Below are positions 45,152 through 61,728 of a stretch of DNA of 64,000 nt, piece after piece (the first letter of the stretch is position 1; each line of letters opens with the position of its first letter). The notes beneath the pieces are model-generated. The model was not told where the DNA came from, did no database searches, and saw only the letters and a program-made list of their open reading frames with translations. The stretch comes from an uncultured Lachnospiraceae bacterium. Lineage in GTDB: Bacteria; Bacillota; Clostridia; Lachnospirales; Lachnospiraceae. The translations under genes and the position numbers were made by a program. Where the stretch lies: positions 62,001-126,000 of the forward strand of contig CANQPM010000006.1 in NCBI GenBank assembly GCA_947625775.1. Reading direction: 5' to 3'.

Positions 45152-45832
45152 ATGGAAAAAATAATAGTAATAGGTAATGGCGGGCATGCCGCAAGCATTG
45201 TTGATACATTGGAGAGCGGGCATGTTTACGACATTGCAGGGTATATAGTGAATGATGCAGAAAATGAAGGTATGCCTATGAGATATCCCGTGTTAGGCTG
45301 TGATGATGATTTGGAAAACATATTTAAAAATGGAATTACTAATGCGGCGGTAGGGATTGGGTATATGGGAAAATCAAAAGTGCGCGAGAAGTTGTGGACA
45401 GTTTTAAAGAAAATAGGATATATATTGCCAACTGTATGTGATCCGACAGCTATTGTGTCAAAGAGTGCGCAAATAGGAGAAGGATGCTTTATAGGGAAAG
45501 GAGCAATTATAAATTCTAATGCTGTGATTGAAAAAATGTGTATTATTAACAGTGGTGCAATCGTGGAGCATGATTGTTTGGTTGGCGCCTTTTCCCATAT
45601 ATCAGTTGGAAGCATATTGTGTGGGAATGTCAATGTAGGTGACAGCACATTTGTAGGAGCTAACGCGACCGTCATTCAGGGGTTGAATATAGGGAAAGGC
45701 TGTACAGTTGGTGCAGGGTGTACATTAAGAAAGGATTTGGCGGATATGAGTATTTATATTGATGGGCAAAAGCATACAGGGGGGGGGTATAATGTTATAG
45801 GAATTATACTCCATCGGGGGTGTGCGGCATGA
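45152..45832 (+). CDS. NeuD/PglD/LegH-like N-acetyltransferase
   Basis: A 226-residue NeuD-family protein: small N-terminal Rossmann part (IIVIGNGGHAASIVDTL) then left-handed beta-helix with IEHD-like VEHDCLVGAFSHIS, whose histidine is the catalytic base in PglD. It is the likely LegH N-acetyltransferase. Family members usually end around residue 210; here a nine-G tract at 209-211 is followed by 13 residues (YNVIGIILHRG...) that bring the stop into ATGA overlap with the next gene. The ribosome site is weak. Confidence 0.75.
   Translation: MEKIIVIGNGGHAASIVDTLESGHVYDIAGYIVNDAENEGMPMRYPVLGCDDDLENIFKNGITNAAVGIGYMGKSKVREKLWTVLKKIGYILPTVCDPTAIVSKSAQIGEGCFIGKGAIINSNAVIEKMCIINSGAIVEHDCLVGAFSHISVGSILCGNVNVGDSTFVGANATVIQGLNIGKGCTVGAGCTLRKDLADMSIYIDGQKHTGGGYNVIGIILHRGCAA
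45779..45787 (+). repeat. Poly-G tract, 9 G, near the 3' end of the NeuD-like gene
   Basis: Nine G encode three glycines. With ten G the frame stops at once (TAA); with eight G it stops four codons later. Only lengths in the present phase run to the ATGA overlap with the next gene. Confidence 0.85.
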
Positions 45833-46521
45833 ACGCAGCACAGAATCTGAAGCCATGGAATGGATTGCCGTTACTTATTTTTGGAACATCAGGAATTTCA
45901 AAGGAAGTCAAGAATGTAATTGATGAAATTAATGCGGAAAATCCTGCGGATGTTTATGAAGTTATTGGATTTGTTTCTGAATGTAAAAAAGATGTAGGAA
46001 GCATTATATCTGAACGCAAAGTAGTGTGTTGCGATGAGGATTTTGAAGATTATATAAAAGAGTATGTTCAGCTCGGCGTGGTGATACCATTAGGGACACC
46101 TGCCATAAAAAAGAAAATTGTAGAAAAAATAGCTACTTATCCAAATTTAGTATATCCTAATATCATTTCGCCAACAGCTAAAATAATGGACAGGCATACT
46201 GTTGAAATGGGAGTAGGAAATATTATATGCAGTGGGTGTATTTTAACTACCGAGATTAAAATGGGAAGTTTTAATCTGATTAATATTAATTCTACAATAG
46301 GGCATAACGCAATAATAGGAAATTATGGAGTAATTAATCCTCTTGCCTCCGTGTCAGGCGGAGTTGAGATAGCAGATGAGGTGCTTCTTGGGGCGGGGTG
46401 TGCTGTGAAGCAGGGGATATCAGTAGGGAAAAAGAGTATTGTGGGATTGGGAGCAATAATAGTGAAAGATATTGAGGAAGACTCTGTAATGATATGTAAA
46501 GCGGCGGAAAGGAAAAAATAA
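45829..46521 (+). CDS. Second NeuD-like acyltransferase
   Basis: A 230-residue NeuD-family protein: LLIFGTSGISKEVKNVI, then hexapeptide repeats (TAKIMDRHTVEMGVGNIICSG..., STIGHNAIIGNYGVIN with the base histidine). It shares the outline but not the details of its neighbour, so the two may add acetyl groups to different positions, for example N-acetylation and O-acetylation of the nonulosonate. Stop overlaps the next ATG (TAATG). Confidence 0.75.
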   Translation: MNAAQNLKPWNGLPLLIFGTSGISKEVKNVIDEINAENPADVYEVIGFVSECKKDVGSIISERKVVCCDEDFEDYIKEYVQLGVVIPLGTPAIKKKIVEKIATYPNLVYPNIISPTAKIMDRHTVEMGVGNIICSGCILTTEIKMGSFNLININSTIGHNAIIGNYGVINPLASVSGGVEIADEVLLGAGCAVKQGISVGKKSIVGLGAIIVKDIEEDSVMICKAAERKK

Positions 46522-47522
46522 TGGACAAAGGAATATTTATAATTGCCGAGGCAGGAGTAAATCATAATGGTGATATAAATATTGCCAAGCAGCTTGTGGA
46601 TGTGGCTGTGGAGGCAAGGGCGGATGCTGTGAAGTTTCAAACATTTATTGGTGAAAAATGCGTTTCTTCAAAAGCAGAAAAGGCGGCATACCAAAAACAG
46701 ACGGTAGGGGAAGCAGGCAGTCAGCTTGATATGATAAAAAAGCTGGAGATGCCACAGGATGCTTTCTGTGTGTTAAAGGAATATTGTGAGAAGAAGAAAA
46801 TCAAGTTTATGTCTACTGCCTTTGATATTGACAGCGCTATGTTTTTGGATGATATAGGAGTTGATGTTTTCAAGATACCTTCTGGGGAGATAACAAATTA
46901 TCCATTATTAAAAGTAATAGGGCAGTTCAAAAAAAGGGTGATCATGTCTACAGGCATGAGTGAAGTTCATGAAATAAAAGCCGCTATTGATGTATTAAAA
47001 CAATATGGCACTAATGACATATCAGTCCTGCATTGCAATACACAGTACCCTACACCCATGGAGGATGTTAATCTGAAAGCTATGCAGCAGCTAAGGAATG
47101 AACTGGACTTGCCTATAGGATATTCTGATCATACCTTGGGAATTGAAGTGCCGATTGCAGCAGCCGCGCTGGGAGCGGAAATCATTGAAAAGCATTTTAC
47201 TATGGACAGAAATATGGAAGGTCCGGATCACAGGGCGAGTCTTGAGCCTGACGAGCTGAAAAAAATGGTTGAGGGAATACGTAACATAGAAAAAGCGCTT
47301 GGCGACGGGATAAAAAGAGTATCGCCATCGGAAAAGGAAAACCTTAATATAGTCAGAAAGAGCATTGTAGCTTCAGTGGCGATAAATAAAGGTGATGTAT
47401 TTACGGAGGATAATATCACAGTAAAGCGACCTGGTAATGGCATTTCGCCAATGAGATGGAATGAGGTTATTGGAAAGAAAGCAGCGAGGAACTTTAAAGC
47501 AGACGAGCTGATTGAAATATGA
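46521..47522 (+). CDS. legI: N,N'-diacetyllegionaminate synthase
   Basis: A 333-residue NeuB/LegI-family synthase: IIAEAGVNHNGD, VKFQTF, STGMSEVHEI, LHCNTQYPTPMEDVNL, GYSDHTLGIEVPIAA and EKHFTMDRNMEGPDHRASLEPDEL, then a C-terminal SAF (antifreeze-like) domain from about 275. It condenses the 6-deoxy-diacetamido-mannose made by LegG with phosphoenolpyruvate. NeuB for sialic acid is the alternative, but LegB and LegG nearby favour legionaminate. Confidence 0.85.
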   Translation: MDKGIFIIAEAGVNHNGDINIAKQLVDVAVEARADAVKFQTFIGEKCVSSKAEKAAYQKQTVGEAGSQLDMIKKLEMPQDAFCVLKEYCEKKKIKFMSTAFDIDSAMFLDDIGVDVFKIPSGEITNYPLLKVIGQFKKRVIMSTGMSEVHEIKAAIDVLKQYGTNDISVLHCNTQYPTPMEDVNLKAMQQLRNELDLPIGYSDHTLGIEVPIAAAALGAEIIEKHFTMDRNMEGPDHRASLEPDELKKMVEGIRNIEKALGDGIKRVSPSEKENLNIVRKSIVASVAINKGDVFTEDNITVKRPGNGISPMRWNEVIGKKAARNFKADELIEI

Positions 47523-48685
47523 AGAAGATTTGTATAGTAACAGGGACGAGGGCTGAGTACGGATTGTTAAAGCCTGTAATTGAAAAAGTACACAAAGCGG
47601 AAGATATGGAGTTGCAGCTAGCTGTTACGGGGATGCACCTTTCAAGTGAATTTGGACTTACCTACCGCGAGATTGAAGACGATGGCTATCCGATAAGCAG
47701 CAAGATAGAAATGCTGCTCAGTTCAGATACTACAGTGGGCATCACTAAGTCGATGGGCGTAGCGCTGATGGGATTTGCTGATTATTTTGAAGAGAACCGA
47801 CCTGACATAGTTGTTATTTTGGGTGATAGGTATGAAATGCTTATGGTGGCATCAGCTGCAATGATTGCGAGGATACCGATAGCACATATACATGGAGGAG
47901 AAAAAACAGAAGGCGCAGTAGATGAGGCGATAAGGCATTGTATTACCAAAATGAGCCATCTGCATTTTACTTCAACAGAGGAATACAGAAACAGGGTGAT
48001 ACAGCTTGGGGAACAGCCACAGAATGTGTACAATGTCGGGGCACTTGGCATAGAGAGCATAAGAATGCTGAAACTTATGCAAAAAGAAGAACTAGAGAGA
48101 GATTTGGGCTTTGTTTTCAAAGAGTATACAATTATGGTGACATATCACCCTGTCACGCTTGAAAATATGACTTCTAGGGAACAGTTTGCCAATCTCTTGA
48201 GTGTTATTGACAAACATAAGGATATTTTTGTGATATTCACCAAGGCGAACTCAGACACGGACGGTAGGATAATTAATTATATGATAGACGAGTACGCGGC
48301 GAATAATAGCGATAGGTGTAAGGCATTTACGTCATTGGGACAATTAAGGTATCTTAGTGTACTGCAGTTTTGCGTTGCAGTTGTCGGAAATTCGTCAAGT
48401 GGTATTGTGGAAGCACCGTCTTTTGGAATACCGACCGTAAACATTGGTGATAGGCAAAAGGGGAGGTCGAGTCCAGAGTCAGTGGTACATTGCGGAAATA
48501 GCGTGGAAGAAATAGAAAAATTTTTGAAGCTTGCGCTGTCAAAGAATTTTAGGTTAAGGGCGAGAAAAGTTGAGAACATATATGAAAAGGCTGGGACATC
48601 TGATGCAATAATCAAAGTGATAAGGGATTATCTGAATAAAGGGATTAACATAAAGAAAGAATTTTATGATATTACATATGATTAA
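47519..48685 (+). CDS. legG: Hydrolysing 2-epimerase of the legionaminic acid pathway
   Basis: A 388-residue NeuC/LegG-type enzyme: VTGTRAEYGLLKPVI, ILGDRYEMLM, HIHGGEKTEGAVDEAIRHCI and GNSSSGIVEAPSFGIPTVNIGDRQKGR. It epimerises and releases the sugar from its nucleotide carrier, giving 2,4-diacetamido-2,4,6-trideoxymannose. ATGA overlap with legI upstream. After it comes a 353-base gap before legF. Confidence 0.87.
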   Translation: MKKICIVTGTRAEYGLLKPVIEKVHKAEDMELQLAVTGMHLSSEFGLTYREIEDDGYPISSKIEMLLSSDTTVGITKSMGVALMGFADYFEENRPDIVVILGDRYEMLMVASAAMIARIPIAHIHGGEKTEGAVDEAIRHCITKMSHLHFTSTEEYRNRVIQLGEQPQNVYNVGALGIESIRMLKLMQKEELERDLGFVFKEYTIMVTYHPVTLENMTSREQFANLLSVIDKHKDIFVIFTKANSDTDGRIINYMIDEYAANNSDRCKAFTSLGQLRYLSVLQFCVAVVGNSSSGIVEAPSFGIPTVNIGDRQKGRSSPESVVHCGNSVEEIEKFLKLALSKNFRLRARKVENIYEKAGTSDAIIKVIRDYLNKGINIKKEFYDITYD

Positions 48686-49038
48686 ACTATTCACAATAAA
48701 TAGCGAATAGTTTATATAATTGTGAACCTTTGGTAACTGAATACCTTACAATAGGAGAAAGAAGTGATGGAGATTATCAAAGAAAGATCATGCACAACAG
48801 AATATTAATGCAGAGTGCTTCATTGAATTAGGGAAGTGATGAGTAGTGAGTAATCTAGAGAAATCAAATGATTTGATGTAGTATATGGCTTGTATAGAGT
48901 ATCAAAGAAAAGGAACACAGAAATGGGATATAGTTAACTAAATATGAAAAGAAAAATTCTAGTATCAGGTATGTAGTTGAAGGGTTAATGACAGAGGTAG
49001 TGTTACATTATTTTTTATTATTGGAAAAGGAGGCTGTG
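48686..49038 (+). other. 353-base gap between legG and legF
   Basis: No intact gene. It begins with an AT-rich inverted repeat, AAACTATTC (48684-48692) and GAATAGTTT (48705-48713), without a following T run, so a weak terminator or attenuator at best. Two short frames with plausible ribosome sites (ATG 48767 after AGGAGAAAG, 13 codons; one starting MKRKILVSGM near 48943, 10 codons) look like stubs of lost genes. legC, absent from the pathway, could have been here, but nothing of it is recognisable. Confidence 0.5.
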
Positions 49039-49737
49039 ATGAGTAGTTTGGGAATAATAACTGCCAGAAGTGGATCTAAGGGAATTAAAGATAAGAACAT
49101 TCGGCATTTGGCAGGTAAGCCTCTAATTGCTTATACAATAGAAAACGCACTTCAAAGTCGATACATTGATGAAGTGATGGTATCCACAGATTCTGATATT
49201 TATGCATCAATAGCAAAAGATTATGGTGCAAATGTGCCGTTTTTAAGAAGTGACAGGAACTCTACAGATATTGCGGAATCAACTGATGTAGTGCTTGAAG
49301 TGTTAGAGGAATATGAAAGACTAGGACAGCATTTTGACGATTTTATTCTTTTGCAGCCGACCTCGCCATTGCGTACATGTAAGAATGTTAATGATGCGTT
49401 TCAGTTATTTTACGAAAGAGAGGCTGATTCAATAGTAAGCGTATGCGAATGTGAACACAGTCCTCTGCTGAGTAATGTTCTGCCTGATGATTTAAGTTTA
49501 TTTGGATTTATTAAAAATGTAGAAAGAAGACAGAATTTAAAAAAATTTTACAGGTTGAACGGAGCAATTTATATTTCTAAGGTAAATATGTTTAAAAACA
49601 TAAGGTCTTTTTACGGGAAAAATTCATATGCCTATATAATGGAGCAACGGGAATCTATAGATATTGACACTGAATTAGACTTTGAGTATGCAGAATTTTT
49701 AATGATTAAGGAGGTTCACAATGATCCAAAGGATTAA
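49039..49737 (+). CDS. legF: CMP-legionaminate synthase (cytidylyltransferase)
   Basis: A 232-residue NeuA/LegF-type enzyme. ITARSGSKGIKDKNIRHLAGKPLI is the CTP-binding signature; STDSDIYASIAKDYGA and LLQPTSPLR follow. ATG 49039 has a strong AAAGGAGG site; ATG 48988 lacks one. Its end overlaps the radical SAM gene by 17 bases, so the two are coupled. Confidence 0.85.
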   Translation: MSSLGIITARSGSKGIKDKNIRHLAGKPLIAYTIENALQSRYIDEVMVSTDSDIYASIAKDYGANVPFLRSDRNSTDIAESTDVVLEVLEEYERLGQHFDDFILLQPTSPLRTCKNVNDAFQLFYEREADSIVSVCECEHSPLLSNVLPDDLSLFGFIKNVERRQNLKKFYRLNGAIYISKVNMFKNIRSFYGKNSYAYIMEQRESIDIDTELDFEYAEFLMIKEVHNDPKD

Positions 49738-50707
49738 TCCTTTTGCACCAATATATCATAAGATAAATAATGGCAAAAACGAAGAAAAATACCATAAAAT
49801 TATACAAGGGGGGGGGAATGCACTCCCGGAATATCTGGATGTTGAATTGACTAATCTGTGTAATTATAGATGTTGTTTTTGTCCTACGGGGACGAATGCA
49901 ATGCAGCGGATGCGTGGAATGATGCCAGATGATGTTGCTAATGCTATTGTAGAGAATGTGCGGAAATATCATATTGCAGGTGTCAGGTTCATTCGCTGGG
50001 GTGAGCCGACAATGCACCCCAAATATATAGAGATTATGGAACATGTAAAAAAAGCGGGAGCGCTTATACATATCAATACTAATGGTTCTTTGCTGGATAA
50101 AGAACAGATGCGGCGCTTATTGGATATTCATCTTGACAGTATTAAGTTCTCTTTTCAAGGGGCTGATAAGGGAACTTATAATGAAATGCGTGAAGGGGGG
50201 GATTATGACAGATTACTAGAAATAGTGAGAACGTTTTATGAGTTGCGTGGTGACAGGGAATATCCATATATTCAAATTTCTACAACACTTACAAGTGAGG
50301 GGGCAGATCAGATTGAAGGATTTAAAAGAGATATAGGTGATTATTGTGATTATTATAATGTCGGTTATACGAAGCTGAATCATTTAGATGTAGAATCTAT
50401 GGGGATTGATGAGGAAAAGAAAGAAAAAATCAGACGTTTGCAGGAAAATGAAAAGATTAATCATAAATACCGCGAGGTATGCACGGAAGCATTTGATAAA
50501 CTGTCAATTAACTGGAATGGGGATGTAACGCTTTGCTGCTCAGACTATGACAATTTTATGATTGTAGGGAATGTGCTGGATAATGATATCAAAAGTATTT
50601 TCAACTGTAATGCGACAAAGATATACAGGAAGGCTATTGTTAACAGACAATACGGGTTGATAAAGTGTTGTCGGGAATGTTATGAAACAATTCCACTAAC
50701 AGAATAG
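49721..50707 (+). CDS. Radical SAM/SPASM-type protein
   Basis: A 328-residue radical SAM protein with the cluster motif C47-x3-C51-x2-C54 (NLCNYRCCFC), GEPTMHPK as motif 2 and a C-terminal cysteine set (LCCSDYDNF, IKCCRECYE) typical of SPASM domains. Strong AAGGAGG site. Two G tracts lie within it: nine G at residues 30-32 just before the cluster motif, and seven G at about residue 159. Inserted in a legionaminic acid operon between legF and the amidotransferase; the reaction is unknown, perhaps a modification of the nonulosonate or another sugar. Confidence 0.8.
   Translation: MIQRINPFAPIYHKINNGKNEEKYHKIIQGGGNALPEYLDVELTNLCNYRCCFCPTGTNAMQRMRGMMPDDVANAIVENVRKYHIAGVRFIRWGEPTMHPKYIEIMEHVKKAGALIHINTNGSLLDKEQMRRLLDIHLDSIKFSFQGADKGTYNEMREGGDYDRLLEIVRTFYELRGDREYPYIQISTTLTSEGADQIEGFKRDIGDYCDYYNVGYTKLNHLDVESMGIDEEKKEKIRRLQENEKINHKYREVCTEAFDKLSINWNGDVTLCCSDYDNFMIVGNVLDNDIKSIFNCNATKIYRKAIVNRQYGLIKCCRECYETIPLTE
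49808..49816 (+). repeat. Poly-G tract, 9 G, in frame
   Basis: Encodes three glycines about 15 residues before the iron-sulfur cysteines of the radical SAM protein. A change of one base would remove the whole catalytic domain. Confidence 0.85.
50195..50201 (+). repeat. Poly-G tract, 7 G, in frame
   Basis: Second tract in the same radical SAM gene, in the segment EMREGGDYDRL. Confidence 0.8.
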
Positions 50708-51075
50708 CTTTATGCACAATTTGGAAGATATTTAAGAAGGTTTTGAGTAGGGGAATCATCTTACTTAGGGGGATTACTGGAATTGGGGAAGGAGGGGGTA
50801 AACATATAAATTTTGTGTGAAATGATATAAAAATCATAATGAAATATATTAAAAATATTTGGAGGTAGAAAAGTGAAATATTGTAAAAAATGTACTATGC
50901 CAGATACAAGACCAGGTATTGTTTTTGACAGCAATGGAGTTTGCAGTGCGTGCAATCATTATGAAGCACGAAAAAATATCGATTGGAATAAACGCTGGAC
51001 AGAATTTGAGGAATTGTGCAACAGGTATCGTGGGTGTAATGGTTTGGGAAACTATGATTGTGCGATTGCAGTGTC

Positions 51076-51083
51076 GGGGGGGG
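51076..51083 (+). repeat. Poly-G tract, 8 G, out of frame, inside the PP-loop codons
   Basis: The tract encodes the two glycines of the SGGKDS ATP-binding loop. One G fewer restores the loop and the whole frame. Confidence 0.9.
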
Positions 51084-51411
51084 AAAGATAGTCATTTTCA
51101 AGTGCATATTATGAAAGAGGTTATGCATATGAATCCAATTTTGTTTTCTGTTGAGGATAATTTTCCGATGACAGAAGCAGGAAAATCAAATATTAAAAAT
51201 ATTAGTGAAGAATTTGGATGTCCAATTATTAGTTACAAACCAAATATAAAAGCGCAGAAAAAAGCTATGCGTAGTATGTTTGAAAAATATGGAAAGCCAA
51301 CATGGTATATTGACAGATATATTTATACATATCCGCTTTATATGGCACTAAAATTTAATACGATGTTATTGGTCTATGGGGAAAATGTTAGTTTTGAGTA
51401 TGGGGGGGTAG

Positions 51412-51418
51412 ATGCTGA
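51412..51418 (+). repeat. Poly-G tract, 7 G
   Basis: Second tract of the amidotransferase gene, in SFEYGGVDAEETY; consistent with the frame of the 3' part. Confidence 0.8.
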
Positions 51419-51983
51419 AGAAACATATTCGGCACGTTCTCAAATTAATAATGGCGTAGCAAGCGAGGTAAGCAGACAAGAACTTTTAAGTTTTGGACTT
51501 AATGAACAAGATTTGTGCATGATAGAGGCTCCAAGCAAAGAAGAAATTGAAATGTTGGATCCTATATATTTGAGTTATTTTTTGCCATGGAATAGCGTAA
51601 AGAATTATGAGTTCGCAAAAACAAGGGGATTTAAAGATTTAACGCACGAGTGGAAAAGGACACATACGCCAGAAGATTTTGATCAGGTAGACAGCAGAGC
51701 CTATCTTATTCACGCTTGGATGAAATATCCTAAATTTGGGCATGCTACGGCAACTGATTATACATCTCGATTCATAAGGTATGGATTAATTTCAAGAGAA
51801 GAAGCAATCAAGATTGTTAAAGAAAAAGACCATGCATTAGATCCTAAATGTGTGGAGGATTTTTGTGAGTTTTGTGGATATACAAAGGCAGAGTTTTATA
51901 GCATCGTTGATAAATTATATAATACTGATTTGTTTGAAAAAGATGATTTGGGGAGATGGAAATTGAAAACAGAAATAAACTAA

Positions 51984-52228
51984 ATTTGTCATATTGACAT
52001 TTATGTTTTTGCTGTGACACTTGGGTATTTCATTAAAACAACAGGAACGGATGTCGCTTTAATATGAAATGGGAATACAAAGGGAGGGCTTGCAGATATT
52101 GATGTGCTGGAAAAATGAAAGAAATAGACGGCATATTTGTAAATTATGAGATATAAAATGCATTGATGAAGCATTAAAAGCTATGTATAAAGGCTTAACA
52201 AAAAATATTATAATATAATGGAGAGTAT
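51984..52228 (+). other. 245-base gap with a possible small coding relic
   Basis: No intact gene. A TTGACA hexamer at 51994 has no acceptable -10 at 16-18 bases. An ATG near 52117 gives MKEIDGIFVNYEI then stop, and another frame a little further reads IDEALKAMYKGLTKNII, reminiscent of the start of a CBS domain like that of PtmE. This may be a remnant, but it is too short to prove. Confidence 0.3.
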
Positions 52229-52238
52229 ATGAAAAGTA

Positions 52239-53614
52239 ATGAATTGGCTAAAAAACACAAGAGCACGGCTTACTACTGGCTGTATAATTATTGGGCTGAT
52301 AAGCTGTTTTATATGGTATTTCAGCTATATAAATGAGCCTATAGGAGATGATGTGTTATTATATTTTGATGGTGCTATAGCTTCTTACTTGGATGATTAT
52401 GAGTTTGTATTAGGCGATAAACTGACATCATTTACACAAGTTATTAATGAACTCAAATTTATATATATGCATTGGTCAGGAAGAATGCCAGGTTATTTTT
52501 TGTGTTTGACGGGGAAATATTACCTAAAATCGTACAGGCGTTTCTCACAAGTGTTATATTTACGGTCAATATTCTGCTGGCAATGAGGATTGTTTATAGG
52601 AATTGGCTTAGGGTATTTTCAGCGCCTCTATCGTTTATAGCCATATTTCTGGCAGCTTACTGGTTTAGAGGCGGGTTGTTTTATTCATATATGTGGACTA
52701 TGGTTAGCGTATACTCATTCGGAGTAATGCTATGTTTGATTTATTATAATATGTCTGTTGTCAATTATCACGAAGGAAAAGAGTGTTCACCGCTGGTGCT
52801 TTGTGTGCTTGGTTTTTTGGCAGGATGTTCACATGAAGTGATATCAATCTGTTTAATAGCTATGGTTGGAATAGATTATTTGCTGCTTGTGGCTCACAAG
52901 AAAAGAAAATGGACATATATATTCAAACATACAGGGTTAGGAATGGGATATTTACTTGGTTTCTCTGCACCGGGTAATTTTTACAGGATGAAACAATCAC
53001 ACGATATAATTTCGGCAACGTTTGGTAAAAGATTGCGTGAAAGTTTGGTTCTGCATATATTGGCTGTTAAGGGAACTGTTTGTTGGGTATCGGTAGTTTG
53101 CTTTGCAGCGGCTGGTGTAGCAGTTGTTTTACTTATAAGAAAAAACAAGGATAAACTTGTTAAAATAATTGAAAGCGAAGCAATACCTGTACTTACGGGG
53201 GGGGGGGTATCTGTTGTAATGTGGTCTCTTGTTTCAACGAGGCCATACTATGGGATGGATTTTTGGATATTAATAGTTTATGCCATTTTGCTTCGCTTTA
53301 TAGTTGAGCTTTCCTTAATTATAGATAAAGCAAAAATAGACATATTGGCAACCGCGTGCGCAGGTATAACAATATTGTGTTTTATTGGTATGTACAGCAA
53401 GGAATTGCGGCTTTATAGCAGTGTGTCATTGCAAAGGCGCATCTTGGCAAAAGAGGCGGTCGAAAATAATATAGAACAGGTAGAGGTTCCTAGGTTTGAA
53501 GATTCCTTACTGGGAGATAGATATTCGTCAGATCTTAATGACCAGAAACAATATAATACAGCCTATTATGTTGCTTACTACGGAACTCGGCTAATAATTA
53601 AAGATGTAGAATAG
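52239..53614 (+). pseudogene. DUF6056-like polytopic membrane protein, frameshifted
   Basis: The first frame (from ATG 52239) has one span and the loop INEPIGDDVLLYFDGA, ending out of frame after HWSGRMPGYF. The second frame carries on with VFDGEILPKIVQAFLTSVIF and about eight spans to 53614. Inserting one T in the T6 run at 52496-52501 joins them into about 458 residues matching the DUF6056/GT-C-like pattern. The best ribosome site (GGAGAG) actually fits ATG 52229, which reaches the same frame only if one A is lost from the A6 run near 52250, so the 5' end may be damaged twice. An 11-G tract lies in the distal part. Confidence 0.65.
53197..53207 (+). repeat. Poly-G tract, 11 G
   Basis: Eleven G within the distal frame of the DUF6056-like gene, encoding TGGGV; in frame with that part at the present length. 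One of the two longest tracts in the window. Confidence 0.9.
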
Positions 53615-53656
53615 GTCAGTTAACAATAAAATATAATTATACATGAAAATGTGGCA

Positions 53657-53684: not shown

Positions 53685-53892
53685 AAATGCGAGTTTGCAT
53701 CAATGTTTGCAACACTGACATATAGATTAAGTAGCAAAAACAATCTTTGAGAGAATAATGAAAAAGTACCAGTTAGGCTGATTGTTGCTTATTTGAAGAT
53801 ATTCAAGGTTTTATCAATGGACATGCAAGGATTTTGTATTTGAATAATAAGAATGTTACGTTAGGAATTTAGACAAACTTAAAAGAGGTGGA

Positions 53893-54477
53893 ATGAAATT
53901 GACAAACTTATATATAGATACATTGTGGGATTGTCTCAATAAAACTGAAATCTGGAAAGAAAACACATTTATTTATCGGGAATATAGCAAAGGAATAGAC
54001 TGTCTGTTTGATGAGTTTGTCAAACACAAGAACATCCAGTCCCGTCTTTTCTTCATCGGTAACGGCGGCAGCAGTGCGATAGCAAGTCATATGACAGCGG
54101 ATTTTATGAAAAATGGAGGAATGAATACATACAGCCTTTACGATAATGCAGTTACCACATGTATGGGAAATGATTACGGCTATGAGTATATATTTTCAAA
54201 ACCGCTTGAGTTCCTGCTCAGAGAGGATGATTTGCTGGTAGCAATCAGCAGTTCCGGTAACTCTCAAAATATAATCAATGCGATTAATGTTGCAAAGAGT
54301 AAAAAAGCGCATGTGATTACATTTACCGGTTTCAAGTCAGACAATAAAGTGAAGCAGATGGGCGACATCAATGTATATGTGCCCTGTGAAAAGTATGGTA
54401 TAGTGGAGTCTATCCATAATCTTATCTTACAGCAGATCGTTGATATGATAATGGAACGCGACGGAGTAACGATATAG
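53893..54477 (+). CDS. SIS-domain sugar isomerase, divergent GmhA-like
   Basis: A 194-residue SIS protein: FIGNGGSSAIASHMTADF (54-71) and AISSSGNSQNI. Compared with GmhA, the first metal histidine is kept (H66) but the next ligand is aspartate (D70) and the C-terminal ligands are replaced (IVESIHNLILQQ), so the chemistry may differ from the gene at 15803. With a HAD phosphatase and an HldE-like protein alongside, sedoheptulose 7-phosphate isomerisation is the natural guess. AGAGGTGG ribosome site. Confidence 0.7.
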   Translation: MKLTNLYIDTLWDCLNKTEIWKENTFIYREYSKGIDCLFDEFVKHKNIQSRLFFIGNGGSSAIASHMTADFMKNGGMNTYSLYDNAVTTCMGNDYGYEYIFSKPLEFLLREDDLLVAISSSGNSQNIINAINVAKSKKAHVITFTGFKSDNKVKQMGDINVYVPCEKYGIVESIHNLILQQIVDMIMERDGVTI

Positions 54478-54478
54478 G

Positions 54479-55027
54479 ATGGAAAAAGAGCGGATTTGTA
54501 AAAAGCCTGCTGTATTCCTTGACAGGGACGGTGTTTTGACAAAAGAAAAGAGTTATATATGTAAAATTGAAGAACTCGAGATTTTTCCATATGCGGCTGA
54601 ATGTATCCGCAGGATACATGAAAAAGGATACTATGCTATTGTGATAACCAATCAGAGCGGTGTGGCAAGAGGACTGTTTACTGAGGAAGAACTGAAAGGT
54701 ATGAACGTATATTTGAAAAGAGAAACAGGCATAGATGCAGTATATTATTGTCCGCATCATCCGGACGGGAAAATAATAAAGTACAGAAAGAATTGTAACT
54801 GCAGAAAACCTAACATAGGTATGATTGAAAAGGCATGCTGTGATTATGCGATTGATATAGGTCATTCATATATGATTGGTGACCGTGCTAGTGACATTTT
54901 GACAGGAAAGAAAGCGGGGTTGAAGACAATTCTGCTGGAATCTGGATACGGAACAAAAAGATTGGAAATGGATGTCAAACCTGATTACGTTCTGAATGAT
55001 TTACAAATGGTGTTAGATGTGTTATGA
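54479..55027 (+). CDS. gmhB: HAD-family heptose-1,7-bisphosphate phosphatase
   Basis: A 182-residue protein of the GmhB/histidinol-phosphatase HAD group. FLDRDGVLTKE holds the nucleophile and acid aspartates; ITNQSGVARG motif II; the CPHHPDG...CNCRKPNIGM segment is the zinc loop specific to GmhB-like enzymes; IGDRASDI motif IV. It removes the 7-phosphate of heptose 1,7-bisphosphate. Confidence 0.88.
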   Translation: MEKERICKKPAVFLDRDGVLTKEKSYICKIEELEIFPYAAECIRRIHEKGYYAIVITNQSGVARGLFTEEELKGMNVYLKRETGIDAVYYCPHHPDGKIIKYRKNCNCRKPNIGMIEKACCDYAIDIGHSYMIGDRASDILTGKKAGLKTILLESGYGTKRLEMDVKPDYVLNDLQMVLDVL

Positions 55028-55055
55028 TGAAGTATATATTTTGGAGGATAAGTCT

Positions 55056-56045
55056 ATGATTTCATTGGTAACGGGTGGCTGTGGTTTTATTGGTTCACAT
55101 ATGGTGGATAGGCTTTTGGTAGAGGGACATAATGTCAGGGTTATTGATAACTGGACTACTGGAAGACCGCAAAATCTGGAACATCAGAAAGATAACCCTA
55201 ATCTTACGGTATATCATATGGATATTAGAAACAAAGAGGAGATTGAGCCGATTTTTAAGGATGTGGATTATGTATTCCATTTTGCCGCGTTAGCGGACAT
55301 TGTGCCTTCTATACAGAGACCATGGGATTATTATTCATCTAATGTCCTCGGAACATACAATGTGGTTGAATGTGCAAAAAATGCGAATATTAAGAAACTG
55401 GTTTATGCTGCATCGTCATCATGCTATGGTATTCCGAATGAATATCCGACAAAGGAGAATGCGGAAATCAGACCGCAATATCCATATGCGCTCACCAAAC
55501 GGTTAGGCGAGGAGACTGTTCTGCACTGGGGGCAGGTGTATGGTCTTCCGGTAATCACACTTCGGCTTTTTAATGTATATGGCACGCGGTCAAGAACATC
55601 CGGCACTTATGGCGCAGTATTTGGTGTTTTTTTGGCACAGAAGCTTGCGGGCAAGCCGTTTACGGTAGTAGGAGACGGCAATCAGACAAGAGATTTTACA
55701 TATGTGACCGATATCGCTGATGCTTTTTACACGGCAGCTATGTCTGATGTGGTACAGGATACATTTAATGTTGGAAGCGGCGGTACATACTCTGTGAATC
55801 GCCTTTGTGAACTCTTGGGCGGTGAGATAACACACATCCCTAAGCGCCCGGGTGAGCCGGATTGTACTTTTGCTGACACGACTAAGATTGAGAGCAGACT
55901 GGGCTGGAAAGCAAAAGTGACATTTGAGGAAGGCGTACAGAAGGTCTTGGATAACATTGATTACTGGCGGGAAGCGCCGGTTTGGACACCGGACAGCATC
56001 GGCGTGGCCACAGAGGACTGGTTCAAGTATTTAGGACGTTCATAA
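55056..56045 (+). CDS. NAD-dependent nucleotide-sugar epimerase/dehydratase
   Basis: A 329-residue extended SDR: TGGCGFIGSHMVDRL, FHFAALADIVPS, AASSSCYG and PQYPYALTKRLGEE with the Y-x3-K pair, then LFNVYGTRSRTSGTYGAVFGVF. ATG 55056 follows TTGGAGGA; the upstream in-frame ATG (55017) overlaps gmhB. Located between gmhB and the HldE-like gene, it probably modifies the NDP-heptose (for example epimerisation), but UDP-hexose 4-epimerase activity cannot be excluded. Confidence 0.75.
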   Translation: MISLVTGGCGFIGSHMVDRLLVEGHNVRVIDNWTTGRPQNLEHQKDNPNLTVYHMDIRNKEEIEPIFKDVDYVFHFAALADIVPSIQRPWDYYSSNVLGTYNVVECAKNANIKKLVYAASSSCYGIPNEYPTKENAEIRPQYPYALTKRLGEETVLHWGQVYGLPVITLRLFNVYGTRSRTSGTYGAVFGVFLAQKLAGKPFTVVGDGNQTRDFTYVTDIADAFYTAAMSDVVQDTFNVGSGGTYSVNRLCELLGGEITHIPKRPGEPDCTFADTTKIESRLGWKAKVTFEEGVQKVLDNIDYWREAPVWTPDSIGVATEDWFKYLGRS

Positions 56046-56087
56046 CACAGATGTGGCAATAAATATTGCAGAAAGTATGGTATATGT

Positions 56088-57623
56088 ATGAGCAAGATAG
56101 TATCTAAGGAAAAATTTAAGAATGAGATTCGACCATTATTGAAAAAGGAAAATAAAACAATCGTACTATGCCATGGTGTTTTCGATGTGGTGCATCCGGG
56201 ACATATTATACACTTAGAACAGGCAAAAGACCTGGGGGGGGGTATCCTCGTCGTTTCTGTTACTGCGTCTAAATATGTAAGGAAAGGACCTGGCAGACCG
56301 TATTTCAATGATGAGATGCGTATGAAATTCCTGGAAGCGTTGGAGTGTGTTGATTATGTTATGCTTTCAGAAGGATATACGGTAGATGATATTGTGGAGG
56401 CTGTAGAGCCTGATATCTATGTCAAAGGTGAAGAGTATGCGAAAGCAGAAGACGATATCACAGGTAAAATCAATGAAGAGAAGGCGCTAGTAGAAAAGCA
56501 CGGAGGTGTAATTCGATATACGACCGGACAGACATATAGTTCGACTAAACTTATCAATACTGTTATGGCAGGTCTGCCGGAAGATGTTATTCAATATGCG
56601 GAAAATTTCAAACAATCATATTCTATAGAAGATATAAAGATGTATGCGGACAAAGCCTCGGCACTGAAAATCTTAGTAGTCGGGGATATCATAATTGATA
56701 AATATACTTACTGCAGAGTACAGGGGCTTATGAGTAAGGATATGGGATATTCCGCACGTATCAGCAATTCAGAAGAGTATCTTGGCGGCGCGATTGCCGT
56801 TGCAAGGCATCTGTCCAGCTTCAGCAGCAATATAACATTGCTGTCTATGATTGGCAGCGAACAGGATCTGCGGACAAGGCTGCATGAAGAATTATCTGAG
56901 CAAATGGATCTTAAGCTCATTGTGGATGAGGAATTTCCTACAATTATAAAACACCGATATCTTACTAAGAATGCGAAGAGGGAAGAATATAGGAAGGTAT
57001 TGGCGGTCAACAATATACCGGAGAAGATGCGGCATAATCAGGAGAGCAGAGAGCAGTTCTTAAAGGAACTGAATGACTGCATATGTGATTATGACGTTGT
57101 ATTTTTGTGCGATTTTGGACATGGTCTGATAGACGAAGATACGATGGAACTGATTCAGCAGAAAGCAAGGTTTCTTGTGCTGAATTGTCAGACGAACTCT
57201 ACCAATAAAGGGATGAATATTATTACTAAATATCATCGTGCTGATGCTTTTGCCTGTGATCAGCAGGAACTTAGACTGGCGTTTCCTATGTATATGGATG
57301 ACGAAGAAATGGGATTTGCAAAATTATCGGAACACCTTCACAGTAAAGGGTGGCTTACGAGAGGGGCGTTGGGGGCTTATGGTATAGAAAATGGAAAGAT
57401 GCATAATTGCCCTGCATTTACTTTGACAGTGAAAGACACAGTAGGCGCTGGGGATGCCTTTTTAGCCGTGGCGGGTGTGTTTTCTTCAGCTGGAGCACCA
57501 ATAGAAATAGGAACATTTGTTGGTAACATTGCGGGAGCATTAGGCGCAAATATTGTGGGAAATAAAGAGGCAGTGGAAAAGGTTAATATATTGAAATATG
57601 CAAATACATTATTGAATGTATAG
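56088..57623 (+). CDS. hldE: HldE-like bifunctional enzyme with swapped domains (nucleotidyltransferase then kinase)
   Basis: A 511-residue protein. Residues 20-160 are a nucleotidyltransferase (CHGVFDVVHPGH with HPGH at 36-39; YVKGEEYA; late TYSSTKLI). Residues about 190-505 are a PfkB-type kinase (LVVGDIIIDKY, and DTVGAGDAFLA near 455 with the catalytic aspartate). E. coli HldE has the opposite order. Together with the isomerase and phosphatase this completes a route to an NDP-heptose. A nine-G tract encodes residues 50-52 of the nucleotidyltransferase. The ribosome site is weak. Confidence 0.8.
   Translation: MSKIVSKEKFKNEIRPLLKKENKTIVLCHGVFDVVHPGHIIHLEQAKDLGGGILVVSVTASKYVRKGPGRPYFNDEMRMKFLEALECVDYVMLSEGYTVDDIVEAVEPDIYVKGEEYAKAEDDITGKINEEKALVEKHGGVIRYTTGQTYSSTKLINTVMAGLPEDVIQYAENFKQSYSIEDIKMYADKASALKILVVGDIIIDKYTYCRVQGLMSKDMGYSARISNSEEYLGGAIAVARHLSSFSSNITLLSMIGSEQDLRTRLHEELSEQMDLKLIVDEEFPTIIKHRYLTKNAKREEYRKVLAVNNIPEKMRHNQESREQFLKELNDCICDYDVVFLCDFGHGLIDEDTMELIQQKARFLVLNCQTNSTNKGMNIITKYHRADAFACDQQELRLAFPMYMDDEEMGFAKLSEHLHSKGWLTRGALGAYGIENGKMHNCPAFTLTVKDTVGAGDAFLAVAGVFSSAGAPIEIGTFVGNIAGALGANIVGNKEAVEKVNILKYANTLLNV
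56234..56242 (+). repeat. Poly-G tract, 9 G, in frame
   Basis: Encodes the glycines after DL in KDLGGGILVV of the HldE-like protein, early in the nucleotidyltransferase domain, so a one-base change would remove both activities. Confidence 0.85.
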
Positions 57624-57657
57624 CAACATATATGTCGATAATTAATTGGAGGAATAT

Positions 57658-58935
57658 ATGACATTTAAGGAGTTTTGTATAAAGAGCAAACATTTTTTGA
57701 TGCTGAGTGGAGCGTTTGGCAAGGCAAAGAAAATAGAGTATTATTTATCTAGCAGAGAGAATTCGGGATATAATGTAAATCATAATGAATGGAAAAAATC
57801 TGTTCAGAAAATAAAAAGCAAATATACGGAAATCAGAGTTCATACATTATGGAGTACAAGAATAGGCGAGTATTTGGTCAGATATCTTAGGGCTGTGGAA
57901 GATTCGGCTGAAAATGAAAAAAAAGGGATTTTGGATGTATTTGTTTTATCAGATTGTATTAACCATAATTCTCGATTGTCGCAAATAATGGGAAGGCATA
58001 TTTGTATTATTGATGACACTAATGTTGAAATGTGGAGATATATTTTGCGGCATTTTCCCAATGTGCAGGTTGCTAAATGCTGGGCGGACTATGAAATCAA
58101 GAAGAATGACAGGCTGCGCAACTCGAAAGATACAGTTAAGTATTTTGAATTGACTGCGGAAGAAGAAGCTGAGGGCATGAACAAAATGAAAGCAATGCAG
58201 CTTCAGCAGCCGTTTGTGTGCGTTTCAAGTAGGGATAAGGCATATCTTCATAGTATTTTCCCATTGAAAGATTGCATATATCATGATTATAGGGATTCAG
58301 ATATTAATAACTTTAATCTTGCGGCAGATTATTTGACACAAGAAGGCATAATGGCAGTGCGAATGGGACGAGCGGTTGATAAAACTGTGGAATTTGGTAA
58401 TTGTATTGATTATGCGAACAATTATTATGATGAGCTAATGGATATTGTATTATCTAAAGGGTGTAGATTTTATGTCGGCGATTCATCAGGGATTGTGTGG
58501 TTACCAATGGTTATGAATAAACCAATAGCTTTAAGAAACTGGATTCCAGTTTTTCTTAATTCAGAATCACTTCCATATAATCCTCATAATTTGCTTATAT
58601 TTAAGAAGTATTATTTAAAATCAGAAGGTAGATTTTTGTCAATAAAGGAGATGATGAAAATTGAGGCTGAAGTTAGATATGATGGTAATAAATATGCAGA
58701 ATATGGTATTGAGGTGATAGAAAATAGTGCAGAAGAAACACTTGATTTAGTAATGGAAATGAATGAAAGATTGGATGGTAAATGGAAAGAAACAAGAGAA
58801 GATATTGCGCTTCAAGATAAGTTTCAATCGATTTATAAAGAATGGTGTGAACGGCAACACTATCAGGATAGTGAAGTTTTGCATATCAGAGTGGGAGCGT
58901 TATTTCTTAGAAAAAATCAATATCTATTAGTTTGA
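57658..58935 (+). CDS. TIGR04372-type putative glycosyltransferase
   Basis: A 425-residue soluble protein resembling the TIGR04372 group of putative glycosyltransferases: VCVSSRDKAYLHSIF in mid-chain, then YHDYRDSDINNFNLAADYLTQEG, AVRMGRAVDK and CRFYVGDSSGIVWLPMVMNKPIAL. The last blocks resemble the nucleotide-binding half of a GT-B fold. ATG 57658 follows TTGGAGGA. Substrate unknown. Confidence 0.65.
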   Translation: MTFKEFCIKSKHFLMLSGAFGKAKKIEYYLSSRENSGYNVNHNEWKKSVQKIKSKYTEIRVHTLWSTRIGEYLVRYLRAVEDSAENEKKGILDVFVLSDCINHNSRLSQIMGRHICIIDDTNVEMWRYILRHFPNVQVAKCWADYEIKKNDRLRNSKDTVKYFELTAEEEAEGMNKMKAMQLQQPFVCVSSRDKAYLHSIFPLKDCIYHDYRDSDINNFNLAADYLTQEGIMAVRMGRAVDKTVEFGNCIDYANNYYDELMDIVLSKGCRFYVGDSSGIVWLPMVMNKPIALRNWIPVFLNSESLPYNPHNLLIFKKYYLKSEGRFLSIKEMMKIEAEVRYDGNKYAEYGIEVIENSAEETLDLVMEMNERLDGKWKETREDIALQDKFQSIYKEWCERQHYQDSEVLHIRVGALFLRKNQYLLV

Positions 58936-58950
58936 TAAAGGAGTATTGTT

Positions 58951-60024
58951 ATGGAAGATTATAGGGTAGATTCGCATAAATTGATGTTTCATGTAGATAA
59001 AGTATCGGATTGGATGCAGGGAAAAGAGATATATCCAATCAATGCAGAGATAGGTCTTGCTGGTGCGTGCAATCATAGATGTATTTTTTGCGCGGTAGAC
59101 TATATGGGATATGAACCGAAAGTGTTGTCAAAGGAAATTACAAACATACGGTTTAAAGAAATGCGTTCCAAGGGTTTGAAAAGTATTTTGTTTGCTGGAA
59201 CAGGTGAGCCGCTTTTGAATAAAGATGCGCCAGATATAATAAATAATACGAAGACCATGGGAGTGGATGTTGCACTATCTACAAATGGAGTGCTATTTAC
59301 GGAAGATATAGCTAAAGAGTGTATGGAATCAATTTCGTGGATCCGATTTAGCACATCGGCGGGAACCGAAGATACATATAAAAAAATTCATCAAGGGAAA
59401 GATGGAGATTTGGAAAGGGTATTCACTAATATTTATAATGCGGCACAATTTAAGAAGAAGCATAATTTAAGAACAACTTTAAATGTACAAATTGTAATGA
59501 TACCCGAAAACATTGATGAAGTAATTATGTTGGCTAAAAAGGTGAAGGAATTGGGAGCAGATCAATATTTAGTGAAATCGTTTGGCTGGCAACCGTTGAG
59601 TGTAAGCAGTTTAAAAAAAGAAATTAATAGGACGACATTTTATGATAATCATGAAGAGATTGTTAGAGAATTAGCAGAATTGAATGATGAAAAATTTAGG
59701 GCAGTATATAGATTCAACCGTATGAGCAAAGCTAAAATTGAAAAGAATTATTCTGAATGTTATGCCATGCCGTTTCACACGAATATTGACGCAAATGGAG
59801 ATGTTTGGCCGTGTTGTCAGCTGATTGGGACACCAGATATGTGTTTTGGCAATATATATCAACAATCTTTTGAAGAAATATGGCAAGGTGATGCACGTAA
59901 ACATGCAATACAATGTATAAAGGATACGAAACTGGCAGGATGTGCGCCAGAATGTAGACTAGATGACATGAATCGATACTTGAATGAATTAAAACACCCA
60001 AGCGCACATGTGAACTTTATTTAG
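58951..60024 (+). CDS. Radical SAM/SPASM protein (first of a tandem pair)
   Basis: A 357-residue radical SAM protein. ACNHRCIFC gives the cluster motif C40-x3-C44-x2-C47, AGTGEPLLN is the glycine-rich SAM motif, and the C-terminus has a SPASM-like cysteine set (WPCCQLIG, GCAPECRLDDMNRYL) for one or two auxiliary clusters. AAAGGAG site. It is similar over its full length to the next gene. No leader peptide gene is near, so a carbohydrate or lipid-linked substrate is more likely than a peptide. Confidence 0.8.
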   Translation: MEDYRVDSHKLMFHVDKVSDWMQGKEIYPINAEIGLAGACNHRCIFCAVDYMGYEPKVLSKEITNIRFKEMRSKGLKSILFAGTGEPLLNKDAPDIINNTKTMGVDVALSTNGVLFTEDIAKECMESISWIRFSTSAGTEDTYKKIHQGKDGDLERVFTNIYNAAQFKKKHNLRTTLNVQIVMIPENIDEVIMLAKKVKELGADQYLVKSFGWQPLSVSSLKKEINRTTFYDNHEEIVRELAELNDEKFRAVYRFNRMSKAKIEKNYSECYAMPFHTNIDANGDVWPCCQLIGTPDMCFGNIYQQSFEEIWQGDARKHAIQCIKDTKLAGCAPECRLDDMNRYLNELKHPSAHVNFI

Positions 60025-60073
60025 AGAGAATTATGATGTGAATGATAGATAAAATGTTATGTTAGGAGAAGAA

Positions 60074-61135
60074 ATGGCTGAAGATTTTAAATTAGATTCC
60101 CATAAATTAATATATCATCCCTGTGAAGTTGCAAGATGGCTTCGTGGGGAAGAAATATATCCTATCGAAATTGAGATATCACCTAGTGGAGCCTGTAATC
60201 ATCGTTGTATTTTTTGCGCAGTAGACTATTTGGGATATGAACCAGTTTTTTTGGATACGCAGATGATGATTCAGAACGTAAAGCATATGAAAAAGCAAGG
60301 ATTAAAAAGTGTAATATGTTCTGGGGAAGGAGAACCATTGTTAAATAGGAATATGCCTCAAATGGCAGTTGAAATGAAAAATATGGGAATAGATGTAGCG
60401 ATGGCATCAAATGGTGTGTTATTAAGCAAAGAAATTACACGAGAATGCTTGAAATCATTTACTTGGGTCAGGTTCAGTGTGGCGGCTGCTCATGAAGAAA
60501 CTTATAGTAAGATACATCGAGGACAAAAAGGTGATTTACAAAAGGCATTGAACAATATTGCATATGCCGTGGAGTGGAAGAAAAGAAATCATTTGACAAC
60601 TACTTTAGGTGTACAGTGTTTATTGATAAGAGAAAATAGAAATGAAATTATTGATATGGCACAAATGCTTAAAGAAATAGGGGTTGACTATTTTACGGTC
60701 AAACCATATTCTCAGCATAGACAAAGTACTAATCATATGGAAGTTGATTATAAAGAACTTTTAGACTTGGGAAAGGATATTTCACGGTATGAATCAGAAG
60801 ATTTTAGAATATATTATCGCTCAAATGCCATGAAAAAAATGAAGGTAGATAAAGCATATGATAATTGTTATGGTTTACCATTTATGACTCATATTGATTC
60901 TAAAGGAAATGTGTGGCCTTGCATTAATTTTATTGGAAATGAGAAATTTCTATACGGAAATTTATATGAGCAGACTTTTGAAGAAATATGGAAAGGCGAA
61001 CAACGGCAGCGTGTTATATCAATGTTTGAGGAATTTGATATAAATGGCATATGCCGAGAGGCTTGTCGCTTGGATGAAATCAATAAATATTTGTATCAGT
61101 TAAAAAATCCGGGAGAACATATTAATTTTATATAG
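60074..61135 (+). CDS. Radical SAM/SPASM protein (second of a tandem pair)
   Basis: A 353-residue paralog of the preceding protein with the same opening (FKLDSHKLIYH), cluster motif C41-x3-C45-x2-C48 (ACNHRCIFC), GEGEPLLN, and C-terminal CREACRLDEINKYL. One difference is WPCINF in place of WPCCQL, so one auxiliary cysteine is missing. ATG 60074 follows TAGGAG. The pair probably performs related or successive steps on the same sugar. Confidence 0.8.
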   Translation: MAEDFKLDSHKLIYHPCEVARWLRGEEIYPIEIEISPSGACNHRCIFCAVDYLGYEPVFLDTQMMIQNVKHMKKQGLKSVICSGEGEPLLNRNMPQMAVEMKNMGIDVAMASNGVLLSKEITRECLKSFTWVRFSVAAAHEETYSKIHRGQKGDLQKALNNIAYAVEWKKRNHLTTTLGVQCLLIRENRNEIIDMAQMLKEIGVDYFTVKPYSQHRQSTNHMEVDYKELLDLGKDISRYESEDFRIYYRSNAMKKMKVDKAYDNCYGLPFMTHIDSKGNVWPCINFIGNEKFLYGNLYEQTFEEIWKGEQRQRVISMFEEFDINGICREACRLDEINKYLYQLKNPGEHINFI

Positions 61136-61158
61136 TATATGAAACAGGAAGATGGTAT

Positions 61159-61728
61159 ATGAATAGCTATTTATCAAATGAGCAGCTTGCAGATTTGCAT
61201 TTAAAAAAATTTGGAGAAAATGTAAAAATAAGTAGTAGAGCAGTTTTTTATTCTCCTGAGAATATTATTATTGGAAATAATGTTCGAATTGATGATTTTG
61301 CTTTTATTAGTGGCAGTGGCGGAATAAATATTGGTAATTATGTTCATATTGCTGCATATAGTGCTTTATTTGGAAAGTATGGAATAGACATTGGTGATTA
61401 TGTGAATATTAGTAGCCGTGTTAGTATTTATTCTACCAGTGATGATTATTCTGGAGAATATATGACTGGGCCGTTAGTTGGTCAAGAATACATTAATGAT
61501 ATAGGACAAAAAATATTAATTGAAAATCATGCCATTATTGGCACGGGAAGTGTGTTGCTTCCAGGTGCTATTTTGCATCAAGGAGTGGCAGTTGGGGCTA
61601 TGAGTCTTGTGAAAGAAGAATTGGAATCGTATAAGATATATGCTGGAATTCCGACAGAGTATATTAAGGATAGAAAAAAAGAAATGTTAAATAAAGAATA
61701 TGATTTTGTACGGGGGGGGGGGTATTAA
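61159..61728 (+). CDS. Hexapeptide-repeat O/N-acetyltransferase
   Basis: A 189-residue left-handed beta-helix protein of the WbbJ/maltose-acetyltransferase kind: IIIGNNVRIDDFAFISGSGGINIGNYVHIAAYSALFGKYG in repeats, then the loop and LIENHAIIGTGSVLLPGAILHQGVAVGA. The end IPTEYIKDRK is the usual closing helix. The final residues RGGGY are encoded by an 11-G tract directly before the stop codon. The tract length decides how the gene ends (see findings). Confidence 0.8.
   Translation: MNSYLSNEQLADLHLKKFGENVKISSRAVFYSPENIIIGNNVRIDDFAFISGSGGINIGNYVHIAAYSALFGKYGIDIGDYVNISSRVSIYSTSDDYSGEYMTGPLVGQEYINDIGQKILIENHAIIGTGSVLLPGAILHQGVAVGAMSLVKEELESYKIYAGIPTEYIKDRKKEMLNKEYDFVRGGGY
61712..61722 (+). repeat. 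Poly-G tract, 11 G, at the acetyltransferase stop codon
   Basis: With 11 G the frame ends two codons after the tract. With 12 (or 9) it runs without a stop into the formyltransferase frame; with 10 it extends about 30 codons and stops overlapping the formyltransferase start. Confidence 0.9.

Follow-up and report, generated by a model that had tools for sequence, protein, structure and literature searches.

Homopolymeric tracts of G or C in Campylobacter jejuni are also located in nonulosonate genes. For strain NCTC11168, 29 poly-G/poly-C loci with tracts of at least 7 bases are reported (PMC4965091), and a second known position of such tracts is the promoter. In Treponema pallidum a poly-G lies between the -35 and -10 elements of the surface-protein gene tp0126, for which an optimum of 17 bp is given, the paralogous surface genes tprE, tprG and tprJ carry poly-G in their promoters as well, and in the classic case of Neisseria meningitidis porA the poly-G between -35 and -10 sets the spacer length (all in PMC7864442). 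The same two modes, translational and promoter, are distinguished by PhasomeIt (PMC6321876). Here, we analyzed the poly-G tracts of a 64 kb stretch (in the following the window, G000:C6:62001-126000) from the genome of an uncultured Lachnospiraceae bacterium (G000, 3.75 Mb in 42 contigs). Judged from the sequence, the longer tracts probably form a genome-wide phase-variation (contingency) set with a legionaminic-acid-type locus as its densest part, and we put the probability of this reading at roughly 0.87.

A direct recount of the window confirmed the starting point of the original prediction, namely ten runs of at least seven G with eight of them within 16 kb (45779-61722), and only the coordinate 51412 had to be corrected by 10 bases to the true start at 51402. 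The statement that C runs of comparable length are missing is also correct, as the window is devoid of any C run of six or more. The ten runs and their positions relative to open reading frames (ORFs) are as follows:

20773..20779, + strand: G7, in frame in ORF 19172-21133 (no Pfam family); possibly chance
25349..25356, + strand: G8 (ATAC-G8-TGTAT), frame broken at the tract
45779..45787, + strand: G9 (ATACA-G9-TATAAT), at a gene end, 33 bases upstream of the next gene
49808..49816, + strand: G9, radical SAM gene, close to its start, in frame
50195..50201, + strand: G7, radical SAM gene, in frame; possibly chance
51076..51083, + strand: G8, in the SGGKDS motif of an amidotransferase, frame broken at the tract
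51402..51408, + strand: G7, second piece of the amidotransferase, in frame; possibly chance
53197..53207, + strand: G11 (TTAC-G11-TAT), second piece of a DUF6056 gene, in frame
56234..56242, + strand: G9, HldE-like gene, in frame
61712..61722, + strand: G11 (GTAC-G11-TAT), 3' end of an acetyltransferase gene, the subsequent frame being open into the next gene

Ten runs of at least seven G compare with means of 1.2-3.3 and a maximum of 7 in Markov sequences of order 1-3 (60 sequences per order), and the five runs of at least nine with an expectation of 0.02-0.32 for the same orders. Shuffling of synonymous codons within 55 ORFs led to the same picture, with nine runs observed against a mean of 1.74 for at least seven G (maximum of 300 shuffles: 6) and five against 0.18 for at least nine. 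Moreover, a G run of up to 5 bases is extended by a further base with a probability of 0.20-0.32 and one of 6-8 bases with a probability of 0.70-0.77, whereas A and T runs follow the opposite trend and thin out with length to a maximum of 8. The run statistics together with the null models therefore indicate a genuine tail of long G runs, while a single 7-G run proves little; the three 7-G runs (20773, 50195, 51402) are weak cases, which taken alone are within reach of chance. One could argue that none of the runs has a role in switching and that they arise as a by-product where coding strands are G-rich and glycine is encoded by GGG, with chance or assembly adding to their length. The strand composition of the window (15333 G versus 8710 C) and the 7-G runs, which are near expectation in the order-1 and order-3 models, are in line with this explanation, but the plateau of run lengths above six is unique to G, and together with the evidence below on clustering, frames, promoters and shared sites it makes a mere by-product very unlikely.

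In the whole source genome we counted 35 distinct G runs of at least 8 bases, of which 29 have at least 9 and 16 at least 10. The genome-wide count against a chance model that had been proposed for this DNA thus reveals a clear excess at 9 and above, as run statistics with the long G runs masked predict about 2 runs of at least 9 and about 10 of at least 8. Twelve of the 35 tracts are located within 26.5 kb (G000:C6:107779-134322) with 0.25 expected (Poisson 9e-17, for a stretch picked after seeing the data), and this clustering is also difficult to explain by a by-product. Half of these twelve tracts are positioned downstream of the window end, in genes for a radical SAM-like protein, an epimerase-like protein, a 645-aa protein without Pfam match, a protein that is methyltransferase-like by eye and, twice, DUF6020. 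The 22 tracts of at least 8 outside contig C6 are distributed over envelope-type genes (10), promoters (6) and places that are neither (6). The envelope-type hosts include DUF6020, at least two methyltransferases in glycan surroundings, an MBOAT protein, a hexapeptide acetyltransferase, PMT_2, a sulfatase-fold protein and YfhO (opposite strand); the host gene at L044 has no Pfam match, lies among sugar and radical SAM genes and was counted as envelope-type. A similar density of runs in housekeeping genes, which the original prediction had named as evidence against itself, was for the most part not found, given the concentration in one stretch and the 10 envelope-type cases among the 22 others, and the tract genes are surface-related according to a gene-by-gene description that was not set against a genome-wide background of gene classes.

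Further genomes of the genus were used for comparison, among them three from other species (G017, G020 and G027) and G035. Annotation of 20 open tract genes out of 32 in two relatives assigned a Pfam family to 13 of the 20, mostly of envelope type. Of 36 genus genomes scanned, 6 are free of any 9-G word. In G035 we observed G runs of 20-40 bases (G035:C49:17917-17970 and C65:159655-159689) as possible assembly artefacts. Very long, artificial-looking runs near contig ends in some neighboring genomes are a further point in favor of the by-product explanation.

Evidence for a translational effect comes from the reading frames. Tracts of at least 8 were collected in G000 (35), G017 (49), G020 (30) and G027 (26), for the relatives around the listed places. 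Of these tracts, 79 are flanked by long ORFs on either side, and 29 of the 79 (37%) join different frames, in comparison to a background in the same stretches of 5.3% for G3 (144/2694), 4.8% for G4 (29/605) and 8.7% for G5-6 runs (11/126; Fisher test of tracts versus G4 runs 1e-14), which again argues against a by-product. Five sites carry tracts in at least two genomes and are homologous on both flanks, another feature that chance runs would hardly share, and at two of them, both outside the window, the frame state varies with tract length between species. An AMP-binding gene is open with G9 in G017 and broken with G10 in G027; the region of 2698 bp is 99.07% identical, and the sole gap is the one base by which the tracts differ. 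The MBOAT gene is broken with G9 in G000 and G017 and open with G11 in G020 (flanks 95.8-99.2%), G017 having one extra base adjoining the tract, and in the split form the tract divides the match to the MBOAT model into positions 80-252 and 263-324.

We assume that the tracts gain and lose G by slipped-strand events and would thereby act as switching contingency loci. A tract inside a gene would shift the reading frame of envelope glycan genes or other genes for envelope modification, and each cell could end up with its own set of working envelope genes. Alternatively, slippage of the polymerase or the ribosome at a coding tract could produce a mixture of full and short products at a fixed DNA length. 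The broken genes, which keep both halves open, would agree with such an RNA-level effect, but close relatives differ in tract length together with frame and the tracts in promoters are left unaccounted for, so that we give this explanation very little credit. A third possibility is suggested by the tract at 45779. Homology to G020 (92.9% over 3006 bp, window positions 45774-48779) starts 5 bases before this tract, which is G10 in G020, and upstream of it G000 and G020 (L216) carry different genes, each with its end running through the tract, which may mark a recombination seam. As there is one clear case of this kind, five other sites are homologous on both flanks and promoter tracts would need a separate reason, it is even less probable that the tracts mainly serve as seams for the exchange of gene blocks between strains.

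The promoter tracts provide a second line of evidence for phase variation. Six tracts in G000 are located downstream of a TTGACA element, five of them adjacent to TATAAT (spacers: 19, 21, 19, 19 and 19 bp) and one adjacent to TAGTAT with a spacer of 16 bp. A homopolymer between -35 and -10 is the arrangement of a spacer-length switch, and four of the five TATAAT promoters precede genes for secreted LysM proteins, a target of the surface or secreted type, and the fifth a gene for a 401-aa protein without Pfam match (L043). The TAGTAT promoter precedes a gene for a radical SAM protein (L040), which is not of the surface or secreted type. The pattern TTGACA-N5-12-G7-N0-8-TATAAT was detected at 15 places in 6 of 38 genus genomes and never in the reversed control, a position effect that a by-product does not predict. 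In this setting, a change in tract length would alter the spacer and hence the promoter strength of the secreted LysM and other proteins. It seems feasible that tract lengths change within one population and that spacer length sets expression in the host.

LysM relatives were found in the genus 17 times in 10 of 38 genomes. Each of the eight closest genes, of which G000 has five, G017 two and G027 one, is preceded by a tract that separates TTGACA from TATAAT or a near match; seven of these tracts comprise 10, 11, 11, 10, 10, 12 and 10 G, and one is interrupted (six G, T, four G) and precedes an ORF with an internal stop. Two interrupted-tract promoters are present at G000:C4:101211 and 110016 (L219, L208), one of them in front of a stop-containing LysM ORF, and are possibly decayed switches. 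Seven of the nine distant relatives could be resolved: two of them (G003 and, from coordinates, G005) are behind a poly-G promoter, the one in G012 (L199) has a poly-C spacer with 8 C between TTGACA and TATAAT (TTGACATACCCCCCCCGATGTATATAAT), and in four neither a poly-G nor a poly-C promoter was detected within 555-1449 bases upstream. Four genomes have the gene for the 401-aa protein, each time behind a poly-G promoter. Taken together, the envelope-glycan genes, the broken frames and the differences in length and frame between species speak for the phase-variable glycan locus of the original prediction, but this description was too narrow, as the set is genome-wide and includes promoters.

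The promoter design is also found beyond the genus. A scan of public genomes for TTGACA-N5-10-AC-G7-N0-7-TATAAT identified at least 114 stretches, mostly in metagenome-assembled genomes of Clostridia and Bacilli from the gut, and the matches listed also include Saccharibacteria, Treponema, Selenomonadaceae and Emergencia timonensis. Among these listed matches there are 123 promoter matches in 114 loci, with G right up to TATAAT in 112; the spacers of these 112 are mostly 19 (58), 18 (33) or 17 bp (12), followed by 16 (6), 20 (2) and 15 bp (1). The first downstream ORF has a strongly hydrophobic N-terminus in 84 of 108 cases among the matches listed, in comparison to 3 of 12 for plain promoters of the same loci, which is a small control. 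When 398 genomes were drawn evenly from the phylum, the pattern occurred in the source genome and in four others, at a single place each and in three cases not as pure G, with no match of the reversed control among the matches listed; this sparse occurrence indicates a design that is patchy and, overall, rare. Uncultured Bacilli from rabbit gut (L122, L141, L162, L170, L178 and others) contain tandem paralogs starting with MKNLKMFAI, each with its own TTGACA...ATACG9TATAAT promoter and with up to four copies per 8 kb (L170), possibly a family of variable surface proteins. Emergencia timonensis (L119) has a poly-G promoter before a secreted protein, and as this organism is cultured, the design can be tested in the laboratory.

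A further property of the tracts is their flanking sequence. TAT directly follows 63 of 109 coding tracts (13/24 in G000, 25/39 in G017, 11/26 in G020, 14/20 in G027), counted with an automatic promoter/coding rule that classed L031:3684 as promoter although it is inside an epimerase gene, whereas only 2.6-7.2% of the G4-6 runs in the same four genomes are followed by TAT. Upstream, ATAC ends 0-2 bases before the tract in 49 of the 109, and in G035 TAT follows 12 of 16 tracts. The TAT occurs in all three codon phases (24, 20, 15), which points to a rule at the DNA level; a cause at the protein level was rejected on account of these even phases. Internal promoters do not account for the coding TAT either, since T at +6 is at background level (0.27) and TATAAT follows in 5 of the 63 TAT tracts. 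TAT is also not a general trait of long G runs, as it follows none of 19 tracts in G052, a genome from another family of the same order; this genome contains several hundred 9-G words, whose flanks are unlike those of the genus (L291-L310). Nor would AT flanks prone to slippage favor TAT over ATA. The flanks ATAC and GTAT are mutual reverse complements, but a hairpin by flank pairing was rejected, as pairing is little above permuted sequences (82 permutations out of 2000 score at least as high), and a shared consensus therefore fits better than site-specific stems. A strict flank motif was found in 11 of 294 genomes of the order (nine times in G000, six times in G035, twice in G517 from another family, and once each in eight), the reversed control occurring in 6 of 294, once each. 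It is conceivable, though we regard it as doubtful, that a dedicated sequence-specific activity makes or keeps the tracts at ATAC-N0-2-G(n)-TAT, in coding and promoter positions alike, and that they are not plain products of slippage. If true, the bacterium would itself be writing its switches.

The genes that carry or flank tracts in the window are, on the basis of profile annotation:

25226..25859, + strand: methyltransferase-like gene in two frames, ORF 25226-25363 before the tract and ORF 25356-25859 after it (Methyltransf_25, PCMT)
43024..44109, + strand: nucleotidyltransferase with a CBS-like N-terminal part, which we take to be PtmE-like
44138..45118, + strand: LegB, NAD-dependent 4,6-dehydratase (TIGR04180, 526.7 bits, cut-off 475)
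45152..45832, + strand: PglD-like hexapeptide acetyltransferase, its final codons containing the tract at 45779
45820..46521, + strand: second PglD-like acetyltransferase
46521..47522, + strand: NeuB-type synthase (TIGR03569, 508 bits, cut-off 400)
47519..48685, + strand: NeuC-type UDP-GlcNAc 2-epimerase (TIGR03568)
48988..49737, + strand: CMP-nonulosonate cytidylyltransferase-like (nearest model PseF, under its cut-off)
49721..50707, + strand: radical SAM protein with SPASM domain
50873..51983, + strand: WbuX-type N-acetyl sugar amidotransferase in two frames (TIGR03573)
52239..53614, + strand: DUF6056 membrane protein gene in two frames, break near 52540
53893..54477, + strand: GmhA-like sugar-phosphate isomerase (under the model cut-off)
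56088..57623, + strand: HldE-like nucleotidyltransferase-kinase (under the HldE cut-off)
61159..61728, + strand: hexapeptide acetyltransferase, its final codons containing the tract at 61712

LegB, the NeuB-type and NeuC-type enzymes, the PseF-like protein, the two PglD-like proteins and the WbuX-type amidotransferase look like a CMP-legionaminic-acid-type set, which would act jointly in legionaminic acid synthesis. For the longer tracts of the cluster, the assignment to legionaminic acid, amidotransferase, heptose and acyltransferase genes stands, and the two one-base frameshifts expected beforehand are indeed present: the tract at 25349 separates the first 45 codons of the methyltransferase-like gene from the remainder, and at 51076 the two frames of the amidotransferase meet, the first piece covering TIGR03573 positions 1-70 and the second positions 71-344. 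The DUF6056 gene has its frame break at a place without a G run and thus appears to be broken for another reason or by an assembly error. Directly past the tract cluster there is a transposase-like gene on the opposite strand (L031:9161-10411, IS110-like by eye).

Several observations weigh against a genome-wide set of switches. Outside contig C6, six of the 22 tracts are neither in envelope-type genes nor in promoters (L032, L036, L038, L039, L047, L048); L047 is located where two genes that are oxidoreductase-like by eye adjoin, L048 is at a contig end, and these six tracts without an obvious switch position would also be expected for a by-product. In addition, the tracts at 45779 and 61712 are at the 3' ends of genes, with no clear on/off effect. 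At three of the five matching sites the tract length is equal (two at 9/9, and the promoter of the 401-aa gene at 10 throughout), and it is different at two; these comparisons are between species and not within one. A break in frame may simply mark the boundary between two genes, for which the background is about 5%, or result from an error in assembly. Furthermore, the site equivalent to 51076 lacks a G run in the amidotransferase orthologs of two genus relatives, as does the 56234 site in the HldE-like orthologs of seven genus genomes, where the tract adds one residue in our sequence; tracts therefore come and go. Finally, the spacers of the TATAAT promoters in G000 are 19-21 and not 17 bp, which would mean that these promoters are weak at present or have another optimum.

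If the longer tracts are indeed switches, a clone of such a commensal would be a mixture of surface types, with consequences for phage escape and immune recognition, and the switching might serve to evade phages, immunity or competitors. Many "pseudogenes" in assemblies would then be switched-off genes, which bears on how strain differences are read. A report of poly-G switching in Lachnospiraceae or Clostridia was not found in the open literature, most subscription papers being outside the search. The novel aspects are the group of the host, the combination of the two modes with a paralogous LysM family, and the TAT rule.

In comparison to the described systems, the tracts resemble those of C. 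jejuni in their number per genome, in their lengths (8-13 here) and in their location in coding regions of surface glycan genes, and homopolymers inside ORFs exceed chance as in a Campylobacter-type set. Different from Campylobacter are the Gram-positive Lachnospiraceae host, the additional tracts in promoters, the exclusive presence of G on the coding strand in the cluster and the ATAC-G(n)-TAT flanks. With tp0126 and the tpr genes of T. pallidum the promoters share the poly-G spacer between -35 and -10 and the occurrence in front of paralogous genes; however, the LysM and other secreted Gram-positive proteins are unrelated to the Treponema proteins, and the G tract directly abuts TATAAT in the sites seen. 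Compared with porA, a single porin gene in Neisseria, one promoter design is used here for a paralogous family. Surface variation in gut Clostridia has so far been discussed mainly in terms of DNA inversion, and the switching of surface genes in gut commensals is what the tracts would have in common with the invertible promoters of gut bacteria. Those promoters depend on DNA inversion and a recombinase, whereas inverted repeats or a recombinase, for which no search was made, were not required to describe the sites analyzed here.

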